A stretch of 29,442 bases of DNA from a virus: positions 1 through 29,442 of the IMG/VR virus record IMGVR_UViG_3300020201_000082; one strand, 5' to 3'. Below, one piece after another: positions 3,077-24,201 of the stretch. The position numbers and the translations under genes were made by a program. The notes beneath the pieces were generated by a model. The model was given only the letters and a program-made list of their open reading frames with translations, had not been told where the DNA came from and ran no database searches. The first letter of the stretch is position 1, and each line of letters starts with the position of its first letter.

Positions 3077-4114
3077 CTATCCGGTAGACGTACCGTTACC
3101 TGCACTCCACATCCAACCACGAAGGTCCGATGCTCCCATCTGACAGAGAGAGTTGAAGTTCATAACGAGATCCTGGTTACCGAGAGAATCAACTACCGCT
3201 GGCTCCGAGCGAGTTGCAAGTGCCTCGATGTAGATGAAGCCATAATCGGCTGTCTTTAGCTTCGAGTCGAACATGCCCCACATGAGACCAGAGAGACCCT
3301 GGTTCTCGAACGCTGAAAGCTCGACCACGTTGAAAGTGTCGGTAGCTGGTGCGTTGTTGAACAGGTTAACCTGCTGCGGTGCGAGTCCCTTATCGATTGT
3401 TCCCTTGATTGTTTTAGCAAACTGCGCCGTGGTCGAACCAGAGCGAGCCACCATCGTGTCGAGGGTCGACATGAGCGGCATACCACGTCCATCCTTCTTT
3501 AGACTCTGCTGGCGGCGAGCCGCAAGAAGAGCCGAGTAGGTGAACTGAGGTGAAGAAACGGCGTCAACGATGACGTTGCTCCATACAGGTCCGCCGTCTT
3601 CACGAGGGTGTGAGGCCGACCAGTATGCGACAGCGTCAGCACCGAGAGTCGAAACTGGAGTAGCCAAACCAACAGAGCTGATAGGCACCCAGGTGAACGA
3701 AGTACCGAATCCTTGCGCGAGAAGACACTGAGCGAGGTAATTCTTCGCAAGCTCAATCGCATTCTTACCCTCCAGCACCTTGTTCTTAACATCACCCTTA
3801 ATCTTCGCTGCTGAACTTTCAAAGAGGAAGAAATTCGTCTGAAAGGTCATACGAACCTTCTTTGTGAAGTGCATCTGCACGTAGTTCTTTGAGAAGCCCT
3901 GGATAGGCGCATCTGAAGCACCCACGGCACCGTCTGGGATGATCTCAGCCATTCCGAGGCCAGTGACACCAACATCAGTGTAAATGCGCTGGTTGTCATC
4001 AATCTTCGTCATGAAGTCGAGATACTCAGAGCGAGTGGTCGCTGCAACTTTTGGAGCAATGTGCTTAAGCACATTGTTCACGATTACTGCATAGTCTTGT
4101 ATTGTTCCGGTCAT
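3077..4114 (-). CDS. Major capsid protein (HK97-fold type)
   Basis: 345 residues, a usual length for an HK97-fold capsid subunit. Visible hallmarks are an N-terminal helical region, a stretch FFLFESSAAKIKGDVKNK leading into a long spine-helix-like segment (about residues 100-135), and the segment DGRGMPLMSTLDTMVARSG, which resembles the phrase many phage capsid proteins carry before their A domain. Near the C-terminus comes a beta-rich part (LVMNFNSLCQMGASDLRGWM). It follows the scaffold candidate and the decoration-like gene, which is the expected head-gene order. It should assemble the icosahedral shell around the portal. There is no obvious N-terminal delta domain or protease gene, which fits a separate scaffold. 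The assignment rests on length, pattern and context. Confidence 0.82.
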   Translation of the reverse strand: MTGTIQDYAVIVNNVLKHIAPKVAATTRSEYLDFMTKIDDNQRIYTDVGVTGLGMAEIIPDGAVGASDAPIQGFSKNYVQMHFTKKVRMTFQTNFFLFESSAAKIKGDVKNKVLEGKNAIELAKNYLAQCLLAQGFGTSFTWVPISSVGLATPVSTLGADAVAYWSASHPREDGGPVWSNVIVDAVSSPQFTYSALLAARRQQSLKKDGRGMPLMSTLDTMVARSGSTTAQFAKTIKGTIDKGLAPQQVNLFNNAPATDTFNVVELSAFENQGLSGLMWGMFDSKLKTADYGFIYIEALATRSEPAVVDSLGNQDLVMNFNSLCQMGASDLRGWMWSAGNGTSTG

Positions 4115-11788: not shown

Positions 11789-11917
11789 ACCACCACACTA
11801 CCACGGATTTAGTCAATCATACCTTATAGAAACCAAGGGTGTGTTGATATTTTTCTGGGAAATTTTTTTGAGCAACTTTTTATAGGGAACCGGGATCATG
11901 AGCATTTACTTTTCTGT

Positions 11918-11966
11918 GTGAGGTTTTGATTTATTTTTCGTGAGATTTTGATTTATTTTTCGTGAG
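11918..11966. repeat. 22-bp tandem repeat, two copies
   Basis: The unit is GTGAG, one variable base, then TTTTGATTTATTTTTC. It occurs twice and is followed by a third GTGAG. It lies about 130 bases upstream of the small terminase start. AT-rich direct repeats like this can be protein-binding sites or unwinding elements; none is proven here. Confidence 0.6.
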
Positions 11967-12095
11967 GGTAGTGGGACGTATTACTACAACAACACCCGGG
12001 ATGACCCTTAAGGGACTACCCCCTCCCCGATTTTTTGAAAGCCTAAAAACCCTGTAAATAGGCCGTATTTATTATACCACATAAATAAAATCAGG

Positions 12096-12377
12096 GGGGC
12101 ATAAGGGCATAACACAAATCTTATGCCCCGTCAAGTTTTTAGCACTTTACACGGCCAAGATACACGGTTCAGGGTGCAAACGGGGCATAAGGGCATAAGA
12201 TTTTCAGAAAATCGTTGGTCGAAAAAACAAATTAAGAAAAATGAAAAACAATTTTATTTTTGAATCTTATGCCCTTATGCCCATTTATCATACCTTATAG
12301 AAAAAATACGGCCTATAATAAGGGCTTTTACTATTGACTTTCACGGGGGCATATGGCGGGGCATAAGCGGGGCATAA
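12096..12377. repeat. GGGCATAA iteron cluster with perfect 20-bp inverted repeat
   Basis: About ten copies of GGGCATAA or close variants occur in both orientations (near 12097, 12105, 12120, 12183, 12191, 12265, 12273, 12347, 12358 and 12368). Two double-iteron arms, 12183-12202 and 12263-12282, form a perfect 20-bp inverted repeat. The 60-base spacer between them is highly A-rich. A further 10-bp inverted pair lies at 12096-12105 and 12120-12129. Iterons flanking an AT-rich segment are the usual structure of an initiator-bound replication origin. An operator array for an early repressor is the alternative. Confidence 0.6.
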
Positions 12378-12567
12378 AACTTAGGCCCCGTACGACGGCC
12401 TATAATGCATGTACATGCGCCGAGAATCAGGGAAACGGCCCGGGCGGCCCGGTTCGCACTTGCCGCTTTTTTGGAAAAATCACGACAAAACCCCTACCGC
12501 ATGTACCCATTCCATTCCGATCCCTACATCATACCTTATAGCTATTTACATTCTACGTTTTTATGGC

Positions 12568-12632
12568 TATCCACAACCCTACTCTAAGTACCCTTATTAT
12601 GTGTTGACATCGACATCGACATCGTATATATT
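12568..12632 (+). promoter_or_regulatory. Early promoter 1 with upstream TATCCACA box
   Basis: TTGACA at 12604-12609, a 17-base spacer and TATATT at 12627-12632 form a near-consensus sigma70 promoter. Its spacer holds three repeats of ACATCG. TATCCACA, a DnaA-box-like sequence, lies upstream at 12568-12575. It points to the first early gene at 12671, leaving a leader of about 30 bases. Confidence 0.75.
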
Positions 12633-12670
12633 TACTATACGTTCAAAGGAACGCAACCTAACAAACCGAT

Positions 12671-17428: not shown

Positions 17429-18064
17429 ATGGGACTATCAAATCGTGAAGGAGGGAAGTACATCACTATTCTCGGTGGGAAATTTTCTGTTCGGACGAAC
17501 AAGGAAAATCCTGAGGCTATCGAGCGAGTGAACAAAGTAGGCAATACTGTATACGAGGTTTTCTATGATTCATTCACAGGAAAAATCGTAAACATCCGTA
17601 CCCGGGACGGAGAGTACGGCAAGTCGTGGGAGTTTGACTTTCAGGACGGCGGGGAGATATACACGCTCCAGCTTTCCTATAGCAATTCGTACGCAACGAA
17701 CATTCTGAAAATGCTACCGAACATCGACCTTTCTAAGGAGATGAAGGTGCAACCTTCACAGAAGATGGAGGACGGCAAGATTAAGTCCAGCCTGTTTATC
17801 TCTCAGGATGGCGTAACGCTGAAGCATGCCTACACAATGGCTGAGCCTAATGGACTGCCGCCTATGGTGCAGATCGTTGTAAAGGGCCAGACTGTGTGGG
17901 ATGACACAGAGCGCCTTGCGTTCCTTCAGGAAATGGTTGATCGAGACATCATTCCACAGCTTGAAGGTGCAACAAAAAGCAAGGCAGACGAGACGCCGAA
18001 GACGGGACTAGAGGGCGAGTTCGACAACGATAACCCTCTCGGAGGAGAAGATAACGACTTTTAA
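17429..18064 (+). CDS. Putative single-stranded DNA-binding protein
   Basis: 211 residues. The body is beta-rich (KYITILGGKFSVRTN, then TVYEVFYDSFTGKIVNIRTR, and later a strand-rich MVQIVVKGQTVW). The C-terminal 35 residues are acidic (GLEGEFDNDNPLGGEDNDF). An acidic tail ending in an aromatic residue is a hallmark of SSB and T7 gp2.5-type proteins, where it recruits partners. It lies behind promoter 2 and before the cold-shock and primase-helicase genes, which fits replication. I have no residue-level proof of an OB fold, so this is a probable call. Confidence 0.6.
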   Translation: MGLSNREGGKYITILGGKFSVRTNKENPEAIERVNKVGNTVYEVFYDSFTGKIVNIRTRDGEYGKSWEFDFQDGGEIYTLQLSYSNSYATNILKMLPNIDLSKEMKVQPSQKMEDGKIKSSLFISQDGVTLKHAYTMAEPNGLPPMVQIVVKGQTVWDDTERLAFLQEMVDRDIIPQLEGATKSKADETPKTGLEGEFDNDNPLGGEDNDF

Positions 18065-18327: not shown

Positions 18328-18672
18328 ATGGATTCAGTAGAAACAGGGCTATTCACGATCACTGGTCTCGTTGATTACAACGATGAGCAGGGAAACATAA
18401 TCGGACAGTACCCGATTGGTTCAGTGCAGGAGCTACCACTTGAGGTAGGCCAGCGCGAGATTGAAAAGGGAGTAGCTGAGGCGGCTGAGGAATTAACCGT
18501 TGAAGAGGCACCTGAGGCACCTGAGGCACCTGAGGCACCTGAGGCACCTGAGGCACCTGAGGAGGCGACTTTTGCCTACTCGGACCCATCTGAGGTACCG
18601 GGTGCTGATGATGATAACCGTGATCTTCCAGAAGGACACGATCCTGTGGATAACGACAATGAGGTAGAATAG
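18328..18672 (+). CDS. Acidic protein with EAP repeats
   Basis: 114 residues from ATG 18328, which follows the SD-less leader CTAACAATTAAACGT. An upstream in-frame start would overlap the cold-shock gene. Residues 1-50 may form a small beta domain (TGLFTITGLVDYNDEQGNII). Then come six EAP tripeptides (residues about 60-77) and a disordered, very acidic tail (DNDNEVE at the end). The proline-rich linker plus acidic tail suggests a flexible tether. Function unknown. Confidence 0.7.
   Translation: MDSVETGLFTITGLVDYNDEQGNIIGQYPIGSVQELPLEVGQREIEKGVAEAAEELTVEEAPEAPEAPEAPEAPEAPEEATFAYSDPSEVPGADDDNRDLPEGHDPVDNDNEVE
18505..18558 (+). repeat. Six tandem GAGGCACCT units
   Basis: Six identical 9-base units encode EAP each time. 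Exact identity of all bases indicates recent slippage expansion. The same design, with a different unit, recurs at 23935-23988. Confidence 0.9.
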
Positions 18673-18683
18673 ATAGATTGCTC

Positions 18684-18833
18684 ATGAAAAAGAATACTTC
18701 TACATATCGCGCAGAAACGCACCAAAAAGAGGACGAATTCCAAGTGAATGTTTGCCGGGTAGAAGCGGCTTTCCATTCATGCGAGATACGTCCTCTTTTT
18801 GGTGCGTTTCTGTATTCAACCCTAGCGGGTTGA
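18684..18833 (+). CDS. Possible 49-residue leader peptide through the RNA stem
   Basis: An ATG at 18684 opens a frame of 49 residues (starts MKKNTSTYRAETHQKEDEF, ends FGAFLYSTLAG) that passes through both arms of the 24-bp inverted repeat and stops at 18831-18833, exactly at the end of the small hairpin and the beginning of the next stem. This placement would suit a leader peptide whose translation changes folding. Against it: the coding capacity of a perfect inverted repeat is constrained, and the peptide matches no family. Kept as a possibility only. Confidence 0.25.
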   Translation: MKKNTSTYRAETHQKEDEFQVNVCRVEAAFHSCEIRPLFGAFLYSTLAG

Positions 18834-18932
18834 GTGAGAGACATAGAGTAAGAGTGGACGTCATAACCCCACCACCAAGTTGGCTCCGAAAGGACAAAGA
18901 AGGTACGTAGCTCTGTGTCTCTCACTCAGTTC
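18711..18932 (+). ncRNA. Highly structured RNA region before the primase-helicase gene
   Basis: Three stems follow one another. Stem 1 has perfect 24-bp arms (18712-18735 with 18789-18812); its 53-base loop holds nested pairs TGAATG/CATTCA and GCCG/CGGC. Hairpin 2 (18816-18833) pairs TCAACCC with GGGTTGA around TAGC. Stem 3 pairs 18831-18848 with 18911-18928 over 18 positions, one of them G-U; inside it UUG(GC)UCC-GAAA-GGACAA forms a GNRA-capped hairpin. Hairpin 2 and the base of stem 3 share bases, so they compete. The RNA ends about 24 bases before the primase-helicase start. It could be a cis-regulatory leader, an RNase III-processed sRNA or a replication signal. No U-tract, so not a plain terminator. 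Confidence 0.65.
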
Positions 18933-18955
18933 GGTAGACGTGCTCCTTAAATAAA

Positions 18956-21376
18956 ATGCCTACACCTAAGAAATCAAAATTCCTCGACAGTTTCTCGGAC
19001 CACGTCTATCGATACATCGATCAGACAGGTACCGGGCGACCAGCCGTATCCTCGGAAACGAGGAGGGATGACCTCAATGCTAATGGCTACGAGGCATACT
19101 TCACCGTGAACGGTTTCAAGGGAACACAGGACGCGAAGAAGGAACAGTGCACTTCTATTAACGCATTCTTCATCGACATCGATGAACGAAAAGACGTAAA
19201 TGAGCTTGAGGAAATAAAGAAGCGACTGACGCCAACATACATTCTTGAGACAATGCGCGGGTACCATGTTTACTGGTTGCTCGACGAGACCCTTTTCAAG
19301 GAGGAATGCAGTGCTGAGGAATGGGAAGCGTCTATTGCTCGATGGGAACGTATCGAACAGGCCATCGTATTAACACTGAAGGCTGACCCCGTAGTAAAAG
19401 ACCTGACGCGTATCATGCGCCAGCCGGACACCTATTACTGGAAGAAGTCCGGAGACCTGTGGAAGGAGGGTGTTGAAAAAGCACCATTCAAGATCAAGGG
19501 ACTATTCAAGAACGAGGCGATGAGGTACTCGATGGACGACATGGAGGAGGCGTTCCCGCCGGTTGAGACGGTGGTGCCATCATTCGCTAAGACACAGGAA
19601 GGAGAACAAATGCAGCGATTCGCTGAGGCAGAGAAGTCAAATTTCTTTGCGATGATTAACAAGGCGTATCCTCTTGAGGAGCGACCATCGTTCCAGCGCC
19701 TTTTGAATGGAGCTGACGATGCAGTGCTACCGAGAGAGAACTGTGCAAATAGTGCGCTACTAGTAACAGCGTCCCTCATGCGCCAGGCCAACTGGTCCAA
19801 GGAGAAGGCACTGAAGCATTTGCAGGAAACAGGATGGCACGGTATCGAGAAGGAAAGAGGAGGGTGGCAGGAGATTCAGAATACGGTAAACAGCGCATAC
19901 CGTTCCGGCTACACCTATTCATACAAGAACGAATTCATCGCGTTCAACATGACTCCCGAGGAGCAAGTGCTCATTCAGGCAGCGTATACCGCAGTGGCGA
20001 AGTCTCGCAAAGAGACTGACAAGACACGTTTTAGTAACTACGAGTACGAGGTGCGTTCCCGCTATCCGTACCTTAAAAAGAACGAGGTCGGTATATTCTT
20101 CAATTACTACGACGGCGTTTACAAAATGCTCACCGATCAGGACGTGTCGGGAATCATACTAAACATGCTTCACGAAGACATGCTCTGGGGCTACCGCACC
20201 AAGCGCAACGTCTCAGATAAGGTGGCTTGTCTCTTGGCTATTGTCTCAGACCTTGAGCTCACAAATGATAAGGGTAATCTGTTCAACGTACGCAACGGTA
20301 TCCTAGAGCTCACGAGCGGCGAGCTACTCGCTCACACACCTGACTACGTGTCGCTTGTTCAGTCTCCTGTTGCCTATGACCGGGAGGCAGGGGCACCAAT
20401 GTGGGAAGCATGCCTTGAGGAGTGGATGAAAGGACCGGAAGGGTTTGAGAAGAAAAAGGTGCTTCAGCAGTTCGCTGGCTACCTTCTAACATCCAGCATG
20501 GTTTATGCGAAAGCACTTTTCCTTGTTGGAGATGGAGGGAACGGAAAGTCCACGTTCGCTGATACCCTCTCGATGACTATCGGGGAACAGGGAACATCAA
20601 GGATTGATCTTGAGGACCTCTACTCTACATTTGGTCTGAAGGGGCTCATCGGCAAGCGCCTCAACGTCATCGAGGAGGTGGGTGGAAACTACTATCAGGC
20701 GCACAAGCTAAAGAAGCTAATCTCTGGAGAAGAGCTGACCATCAACATGAAGTTCAAGGATCAGTTCAAGTTCAAGCCACAAGCCAAGTTCGTTTTTGCG
20801 GTGAACACTATGCCGCGTGTCGATGACTCTTCAAGCGCGACCGAGCGTCGCATGGTAGTGGTGCAGTTCAACAACAACTTCCGCGATAATCCGAACATTC
20901 GACTACGCTTTTCAGGTGGACTATTGTCGCAGGAGCTACCCGGTATCCTCAACTGGATGCTTGAGGGGTACCGCTCGCTCATGCTGGAGGGTAATTTCGT
21001 GAAGACAGAGGAGCAGAGCCAGTCGCTTGCAGAGTACCGCGAGGAGAACTCATCAGTGGATGGATTCATCGGGGAGTGTCTCTTGTTCAGTCCTGACGCG
21101 CTTGAGACAACATCGAAACTGTACGGTGAGTATAAGGATTACTGTTCAAAGGACGGACGAAAGTACAAGAGCATGATTGCCTTCACAAAAGAGATGAAAG
21201 CATACGGGCAGAGGTCAGGTAACTTCCTGTATATGCCGCGTGAGAATAACCACTCGACCGGATTCTTCAAAGGTGTCAGTGTTGCGTCGAAGTGGGACAG
21301 CGTCTTCGAGACACCGGCCGACGTGAGGAAGGAGTACGAAGCACAGCATGTATCCGATGATGATGATGTTCTATGA
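18956..21376 (+). CDS. Primase-helicase (AEP-type primase fused to SF3 helicase)
   Basis: 806 residues. The N-terminal part resembles archaeo-eukaryotic-type primases: FFIDIDE (D74, D76), RGYHVYWLL (H104) and DLTRIMRQPDTYYW (R152, R155). A linker follows, then a D5-like region (NLFNVRNGILELTSGEL) and a superfamily 3 helicase core: Walker A GDGGNGKST at about 525-533, Walker B LNVIEEVGG at about 569, sensor FAVNTMPRVDD at about 614-624, and an arginine in ATERR at about 631. It should unwind DNA at the origin and make primers, like phage P4 alpha and D5-type proteins. Its stop overlaps the helicase start by four bases. Its 5' side is the structured RNA. Confidence 0.93.
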   Translation: MPTPKKSKFLDSFSDHVYRYIDQTGTGRPAVSSETRRDDLNANGYEAYFTVNGFKGTQDAKKEQCTSINAFFIDIDERKDVNELEEIKKRLTPTYILETMRGYHVYWLLDETLFKEECSAEEWEASIARWERIEQAIVLTLKADPVVKDLTRIMRQPDTYYWKKSGDLWKEGVEKAPFKIKGLFKNEAMRYSMDDMEEAFPPVETVVPSFAKTQEGEQMQRFAEAEKSNFFAMINKAYPLEERPSFQRLLNGADDAVLPRENCANSALLVTASLMRQANWSKEKALKHLQETGWHGIEKERGGWQEIQNTVNSAYRSGYTYSYKNEFIAFNMTPEEQVLIQAAYTAVAKSRKETDKTRFSNYEYEVRSRYPYLKKNEVGIFFNYYDGVYKMLTDQDVSGIILNMLHEDMLWGYRTKRNVSDKVACLLAIVSDLELTNDKGNLFNVRNGILELTSGELLAHTPDYVSLVQSPVAYDREAGAPMWEACLEEWMKGPEGFEKKKVLQQFAGYLLTSSMVYAKALFLVGDGGNGKSTFADTLSMTIGEQGTSRIDLEDLYSTFGLKGLIGKRLNVIEEVGGNYYQAHKLKKLISGEELTINMKFKDQFKFKPQAKFVFAVNTMPRVDDSSSATERRMVVVQFNNNFRDNPNIRLRFSGGLLSQELPGILNWMLEGYRSLMLEGNFVKTEEQSQSLAEYREENSSVDGFIGECLLFSPDALETTSKLYGEYKDYCSKDGRKYKSMIAFTKEMKAYGQRSGNFLYMPRENNHSTGFFKGVSVASKWDSVFETPADVRKEYEAQHVSDDDDVL

Positions 21377-23637: not shown

Positions 23638-24201
23638 ATGGGATCAAAGACTACAAAGACCGTAAAGACCGTAAAGAAAGTAAAAGCACCCGCACCCGCG
23701 AAAGTGGTGAAGGTTGTAAAGGAAAAGAAGGCTACCGTTAAGTTCGTGTCGTTTACTCTCGGGGCGACAATCCCTACCCAGTCATTCGGGAACATTCAGC
23801 CGCACCTTACTGTTGAGGCTGGGTCTTACGAGGATGCAGCAGCGTTTGCCTTCCCTATTATCGAAGGTCTCTACGCGAAGTACGCTGACGTGAAGCCCGG
23901 GTTCCTTGGAAAGATAACTGAGACTGTAAAGCAGGTCGCTCCAGTCGCTCCAGTCGCTCCAGTCGCTCCAGTCGCTCCAGTGGCTCCAGTCGCAGCACAG
24001 GTCGAGACAGCAGCTCCAACAGCTCCTGAGGCACCTAAGAGCGAGTTTGTACTCAAGGCTGAGAAGATGATCGGGCTTGCCATGAGTGCAGAAGCAGCGA
24101 TTGTTATCCAGACCCAGGTCGAGAAGTCCGTAAAGATTGCAGAGGCAGATAAGCCAGCTCTCCTTGCACTCGTCCTCAAGAAGCGTGGAGAGTTCAAGTA
24201 A
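23638..24201 (+). CDS. Two-part protein with basic head and VAP-repeat linker
   Basis: 187 residues. Residues 1-33 are a lysine-rich, probably disordered head (MGSKTTKTVKTVKKVKAPAP). Residues about 34-95 form a compact domain (KFVSFTLGATIPTQSFGNIQ, HLTVEAGSYEDAAAFAFPII). Residues 100-117 are six VAP tripeptides acting as a linker, and the last 60 residues are a helical domain. The first domain resembles uncharacterised phage proteins with a 'TVEAG-x-YE-A' segment. A DNA-binding accessory role is possible because of the basic head. The start follows CAACTATCAAATTGT. Confidence 0.7.
   Translation: MGSKTTKTVKTVKKVKAPAPAKVVKVVKEKKATVKFVSFTLGATIPTQSFGNIQPHLTVEAGSYEDAAAFAFPIIEGLYAKYADVKPGFLGKITETVKQVAPVAPVAPVAPVAPVAPVAAQVETAAPTAPEAPKSEFVLKAEKMIGLAMSAEAAIVIQTQVEKSVKIAEADKPALLALVLKKRGEFK
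23935..23988 (+). repeat. Six tandem GTCGCTCCA units
   Basis: Five identical 9-base units and a sixth with one change (GTG for GTC) encode VAP six times. Same unit length and count as the EAP tract at 18505-18558, but a different sequence. Confidence 0.9.

Follow-up and report, generated by a model that had tools for sequence, protein, structure and literature searches.

The segment ahead of the primase-helicase gene

The window analysed here, 29,442 nucleotides of DNA from an uncultivated phage (the whole of IMG/VR record IMGVR_UViG_3300020201_000082), carries on its plus strand a primase-helicase gene (18956–21376) with matches to D5_N, DUF5906 and a DNA primase PHROG. Upstream, also on the plus strand (17429–18064), lies the gene for a 211-aa protein that is probably SSB-like: it has an acidic tail, belongs to a PHROG of unknown function, and its AlphaFold model (pLDDT 77) gives weak matches to OB-fold ssDNA binders such as PrgE, Stn1 and RPA. 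A cold-shock protein, whose CSD domain is genuine, had been proposed in an earlier note on this DNA as a chaperone for the RNA described below; the proposal fell, as relative L002 has no such gene between its SSB-like gene and the element.

The segment directly preceding the primase-helicase gene (18684–18955) folds with a predicted energy of −115.4 kcal/mol, compared with −67.4 ± 4.8 kcal/mol for shuffled sequences (z = −10.07). The earlier note had described here an inverted repeat with nested pairs in its loop, two further stems and a short open frame, and each was recovered, all on the plus strand. The perfect 24-bp repeat pairs 18712–18735 with 18789–18812 and forms the outer helix of a hairpin that we term P2. 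Its inner helices join GUGAAUG (18744–18750) to CAUUCAU (18774–18780) and GCCG (18754–18757) to CGGC (18766–18769); covariation is seen in this apical stem (5′ sides, 18744–18757), and the 3′ sides (18766–18780) rest on the fold as well as on covariation. Hairpin 2 (18816–18833, UCAACCC-UAGC-GGGUUGA) pairs 18816–18822 with 18827–18833 over 7 bp, and stem 3 pairs 18822–18848 with 18911–18937, overlapping hairpin 2 at its base, enclosing a weak 3-bp GAAA hairpin and ending 18 nt before the primase AUG. The open frame (18684–18833) runs from ATG to a TGA that lies at the bases shared by hairpin 2 and stem 3. The first reading had missed the most conserved feature, the pairing of the P2 apical loop, A′ (GUAGAAG, 18759–18765), with an upstream segment, A (CUUCUAC, 18697–18703). 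A′ sits at the exact centre of P2, with 47 nt on either side, and A begins 13 nt past position 18684, where the AUG starts.

An uncurated hairpin scan found no second copy of the element elsewhere in the window. Other repeats were observed: in-frame 9-bp tandem repeats in two genes (18505–18567 and 23926–23997), encoding EAP and VAP repeats, and several long inverted repeats between divergent gene blocks (11890–12660), where GGGCATAAGGGCATAA units also recur at 12097 and 12183, with the complement at 12267.

That the layout belongs to no familiar RNA family, as the earlier note had supposed, agrees with the Rfam searches: release 15 gave no match in the window at the gathering score, the segment itself had no match with an E-value below 0.29 at a relaxed threshold, and a search of 12 relatives returned only an unrelated tRNA and nothing for the element. 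No DNA match was found among named phage records and no close relative in GTDB genomes; the protein matches in named phages are distant (<60% identity), so that no cultured host is known. The relatives' loci were found in IMG/VR through the downstream primase-helicase (53–74% identity), and the region upstream of each was read.

Conservation and covariation of P2 and its loop complement

In 22 of 24 non-redundant loci the primase gene is preceded by P2, a hairpin of 60–120 nt, together with a segment A of 7–12 nt that lies just 5′ of P2 and is complementary to the centre of the apical loop A′; about 30 relatives in all encode the long hairpin before the replication gene. Segment A mostly contains or follows an AUG, which in the window clade lies 13 nt before the start of A, and P2 is separated from the primase start by 9–36 nt in most single-hairpin loci. 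Alongside CUUCUAC/GUAGAAG in the window, A/A′ reads CUUCCAC/GUGGAAG in L001, CUUCGACA/UGUCGAAG in L030, CCAUCAC/GUGAUGG in L002, AUGGCACA/UGUGCCAU in L007, AAUGUAAC/GUUACAUU in L012, AAAUGCAAC/GUUGCAUUU in L010, AAUGUAGAA/UUCUACAUU in L014 and AUAACCCGCAAA/UUUGCGGGUUAU in L048.

A complement of at least 7 nt to the locus's own loop is present in 22/24 loci, compared with 61 of 494 swaps of upstream segments and loops between clades. Significance at a single locus is modest (per-locus shuffle fractions mostly 0.0005 to 0.1), and the strength of the A:A′ evidence is its repetition across loci and its position. Indeed, complementarity to A along P2 peaks at the centre only (mean run 7.8 versus 3.4–5.3 elsewhere). 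In most loci the uncurated scan gave P2 the top rank or one close to it, its A runs being 7–12 long versus mostly 3–7 for other hairpins. A held-out set, collected through the neighbouring SSB-like protein, comprised ten new contigs, six of them with a downstream primase hit; A and A′ were found in five of these six (L062, L070, L073, L087 and L090, the automatic stem of L090 having to be widened) and not in the sixth, L091.

The element is dispensable, since L033 and L034 have the primase and lack it. Segment A was not found in L055 and L091, where the loop complements the primase start region over 7 and 8 nt, respectively (shuffle fractions 0.105 and 0.027); because AAUGUAUG is recurrent on the coding strand of those phages, we take this match as a lead only. 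Upstream of A in L014 (2838–2885), and in the matching parts of L017, L018 and L025, a CUCCCCCGAU-type segment complements the P2 base AUCGGAGGAG and could be a further competitor pairing.

The earlier note had proposed that related phages be searched for compensatory changes in the paired arms, and such changes are present. In an alignment of the window clade, made by joining by hand the A and loop blocks of five phages, 11 of 11 pairs hold in every sequence. A and A′ covary in these five relatives: 35 of 35 A:A′ cells are paired, with double-sided changes in four of the seven pairs, and the covariation score was reached by no shuffle. A second clade has 94.6% of its cells paired and 13 pairs changed on both sides (0/500 shuffles); as loci of the same clade are related, these counts do not represent independent events. 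The third clade is uninformative for A:A′, which never varies there, and its P2 covaries weakly. The arms of P2 have diverged to 29–54% identity between four phages compared within one clade. Single mismatches in P2 over the 24 loci are G-U in 44 cases and A-C in 4, which points to selection on RNA of the primase sense strand and not on a DNA element or an antisense RNA.

Other RNAs were seen in the same intergenic slot. Contig L078 of the held-out set ends before any primase and carries, after its SSB-like gene (3156–3280), a Y RNA-like match (YrlA, RF02553; 41.2 bits, E-value 3e-8, below the gathering score of 69). Three loci hold tRNAs or tRNA-like sequences: L022 (2734–2807), with a 4-nt anticodon call and located inside a long hairpin; L062 (3848–3966), whose anticodon loop carries some 50 additional nt; and L009 (2705–2789), apparently without an anticodon arm.

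The leader frame and the predicted order of folding

Read from the AUG that A contains or follows, the frame has no stop within P2 in 15 of 23 loci, compared with 2.3 expected from shuffles, and the other two frames are open in 2 and 3 loci. The encoded peptide is not conserved. In the window clade about seven N-terminal codons are alike (MKKNTST in the window and its close relatives) and the remaining peptide is not kept. The window, L001 and L030 each read the conserved loop in a different frame. A coding-type substitution pattern across 18684–18833, which the earlier note had named as evidence against a structured RNA, was thus not found, as coding character is confined to roughly the first seven codons. 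In the clade of L014, L017, L018 and L025, AUG-UAG stands in place of the ORF. The leader stop overlaps or adjoins the primase start in L002, L015 and L048 (AUGA) and in L008, L016, L019, L020 and L022; in the window 122 nt separate it from the primase, so that direct coupling is not obvious there. HNH-type endonuclease genes directly follow the element in L010, L021, L042 and L044, and in L021 (2035–2541) and L044 (1355–2002) such genes begin at the leader AUG and read through the hairpin, an arrangement suggesting that translation can start at this AUG.

A and P2 are separated by a linker of 4–30 nt, compared with half-hairpins of 29–56 nt. With the 8-nt linker of the window, helix dimensions make it sterically doubtful that A:A′ and a fully closed P2 co-exist in one molecule, and in L002, L007, L008 and L012, with linkers of 12–25 nt, their co-existence is possible. 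When prefixes of the nascent transcript were folded, the predicted A:A′ probability exceeded 0.5 in 18 of 24 loci at the point at which A′ had just been made, and no A:A′ was predicted after the P2 3′ arm was complete, a loss that is partly forced by the method, which excludes pseudoknots.

Hairpin 2 and stem 3 were observed in the window and two relatives, L001 and L030, but nowhere else in the family, and are thus a lineage-specific addition. In these three loci hairpin 2 is predicted to form at all nascent lengths. The earlier note had seen in the two stems a pair of mutually exclusive folds. This stands insofar as the same bases are contested, the energies are nearly equal (−48.9 versus −50.8 kcal/mol for the two states in the window; differences of 0.2–1.9 kcal/mol across the three loci) and the competition is kept in L001 and L030; it does not extend to the rest of the family. 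The modelled switch, real on paper, would be confined to a few base pairs added locally.

A candidate leader for primase translation and its relation to known systems

The element is very probably a real and previously undescribed RNA control element for the primase gene. Of the regulatory switch or processed RNA put forward in the earlier note, a structured RNA that is functional and belongs with the primase-helicase gene is upheld, and the regulatory role is one that we infer. The reading we favour, to which we give roughly an even chance, is that the primase mRNA carries a cis-acting structured translational leader, with the loop masking the start of a leader ORF whose translation is coupled to that of the primase. 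A short leader ORF would start just 5′ of P2, and its start region would be the antisense target of the P2 apical loop. Transcribed ahead of the P2 3′ arm, A′ would pair with A and mask the leader start; where the linker is short, completion of P2 would compete with A:A′. Once the leader start was freed, a ribosome translating the leader ORF would open the hairpin and be delivered to the primase start, most directly where the leader stop overlaps the primase AUG, and it would be translation of the leader that counts and not its product. The data show a conserved and covarying structure, the RNA sense, the position and the open leader frame; that the loop blocks initiation, that the folds follow one another co-transcriptionally in vivo and that the primase is coupled to the leader is inferred. 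More tentatively, the element may represent a new class of phage RNA timer, in which the loop is antisense to an upstream start region and the linker is too short for both pairings, so that the start would be masked only during transcription and then released, gating a content-free leader ORF coupled to a replication primase; we regard this as possible but rather doubtful.

Several other readings have to be weighed. P2 could be an independent small RNA, either released from the transcript (RNase III acting on the perfect 24-bp stem being one way) or transcribed from a promoter of its own, and could use the 7-nt loop to act in trans or to dimerise. Its long perfect stem and exposed covarying loop would suit such an RNA, and with a linker of 8 nt against a hairpin of >30 bp in the window A:A′ would form more easily in trans; yet the position is tied to the primase start, the leader frame is open across the hairpin, which a free small RNA does not need, and a sigma-70 scan of the window gave no promoter above chance, though the host's promoter type may differ. 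We consider this reading unlikely, if the most serious of its kind to us. Less probable still is a role for P2 in processing or stability, either as a cleavage site for RNase III or as a 5′ stabiliser upstream of the primase start, in which A:A′ would be a secondary detail: its length of about two to three helical turns and its end near the primase start would fit, but the covariation of the apical loop with the leader start would go unexplained. The loop pairing is equally unaccounted for if P2 is read as an intrinsic terminator or attenuator separating the SSB-like gene from the primase; despite U-rich 3′ arms in L007, L008 and L019, this reading has very little in its favour, as no U tract follows the window hairpin and no terminator match was found there (scan at chance).

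The HNH-type genes directly after the element in four loci, two of them starting at the leader AUG, raise the question of whether the element is the control region of a free-standing homing endonuclease gene, retained with that gene in some phages and a remnant in others, the more so as T4-type endonucleases use start-masking hairpins (PMC3014915). In most loci, however, no endonuclease accompanies the element, and the inserted genes are not the same from locus to locus; the element was therefore probably in place before them, and we hold this origin to be quite improbable. A DNA element, such as a cruciform or a single-strand origin near the replication genes, would suit the proximity to the primase and the DnaA-box-like sites near some copies, but the G-T to A-C mismatch ratio of 44 to 4 shows selection on sense-strand RNA, and we reject it as scarcely credible. 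Such sites were seen in L008, L009, L023 and L048; upstream of the primase in L009, L011, L024 and L048, TTATCCACA DnaA-box-like sites close to the element hint at a nearby origin. Equally remote, and likewise rejected, is a small protein gene that is palindromic by chance; it would explain the frame open in 15/23 loci and the similar first seven codons in the window clade, but not a peptide that is not conserved, a loop in three frames in close relatives and a clade with AUG-UAG. A likeness to the EBS/IBS pairing of group II introns and to self-cleaving ribozymes was discarded, as about 130 nt leaves no room for catalytic domains.

The translational leader that we favour resembles known control systems in part. 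In repY/repZ of ColIb-P9 (IncI-α) and its IncB and IncL/M relatives, a leader peptide and a pseudoknot control the replication initiator; the loop pairs with a site beyond the 3′ end of the hairpin, close to where the initiator starts, and this pairing is activating; an antisense RNA regulates the system. The phage element likewise has a replication gene behind a short leader ORF and a hairpin loop that pairs at a distance, and in eight loci, although not in the window, the leader stop is near the replication-gene start. By contrast, the phage loop pairs with the leader start region on the 5′ side and not with a 3′ site, 3′ loop complementarity being found only in L055, L091 and loci with AAUGUAUG-type starts, and there is no sequence or Rfam match. 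No sigma-70-type antisense promoter was found on the minus strand of the window between 17900 and 19000, where the host's promoter type may again differ. Papers on repY/repZ appear in the reference list of PMC10724649. Plasmids are known in which it is translation of a leader ORF and not its product that drives the replication gene (PMC5304414; PMC12365149). This holds for tap/repA of R1 with CopA (PMC5304414), which the element resembles in this respect, but R1 has no comparable pairing of a loop with the leader start and is controlled by an antisense RNA.

Among phage systems, the T4 gene 32 operator, likewise in the mRNA of a replication gene, is a pseudoknot 5′ of the start, with an overlapping homing endonuclease frame (PMC535899); it differs in being about 28 nt long, in being bound by gp32 for autorepression and in having neither a long hairpin nor a leader ORF, and the protein adjacent to the phage element is only SSB-like. 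The timP mRNA also has mutually exclusive folds, one with a pseudoknot, that control translation (PMC11228461), but it is a toxin-antitoxin mRNA whose pseudoknot forms between two stem-loops and switches translation on. In the hairpins of T4-type homing endonuclease genes RNA structure masks a start (PMC3014915), although there the ribosome binding site is sequestered directly and no apical loop covaries. The 5′-side loop pairing and the lack of any sequence or Rfam relation indicate that the element is no member of the plasmid, T4 gene 32 or timP families; by analogy, it may work similarly to them. It constitutes a structured RNA family outside Rfam, detected by structure where sequence similarity in the arms is largely gone, and offers a clean test system for co-transcriptional folding versus translation. 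If the element gates primase synthesis, phages would have independently evolved a replication control like that of plasmids, built from a leader ORF and loop pairing.
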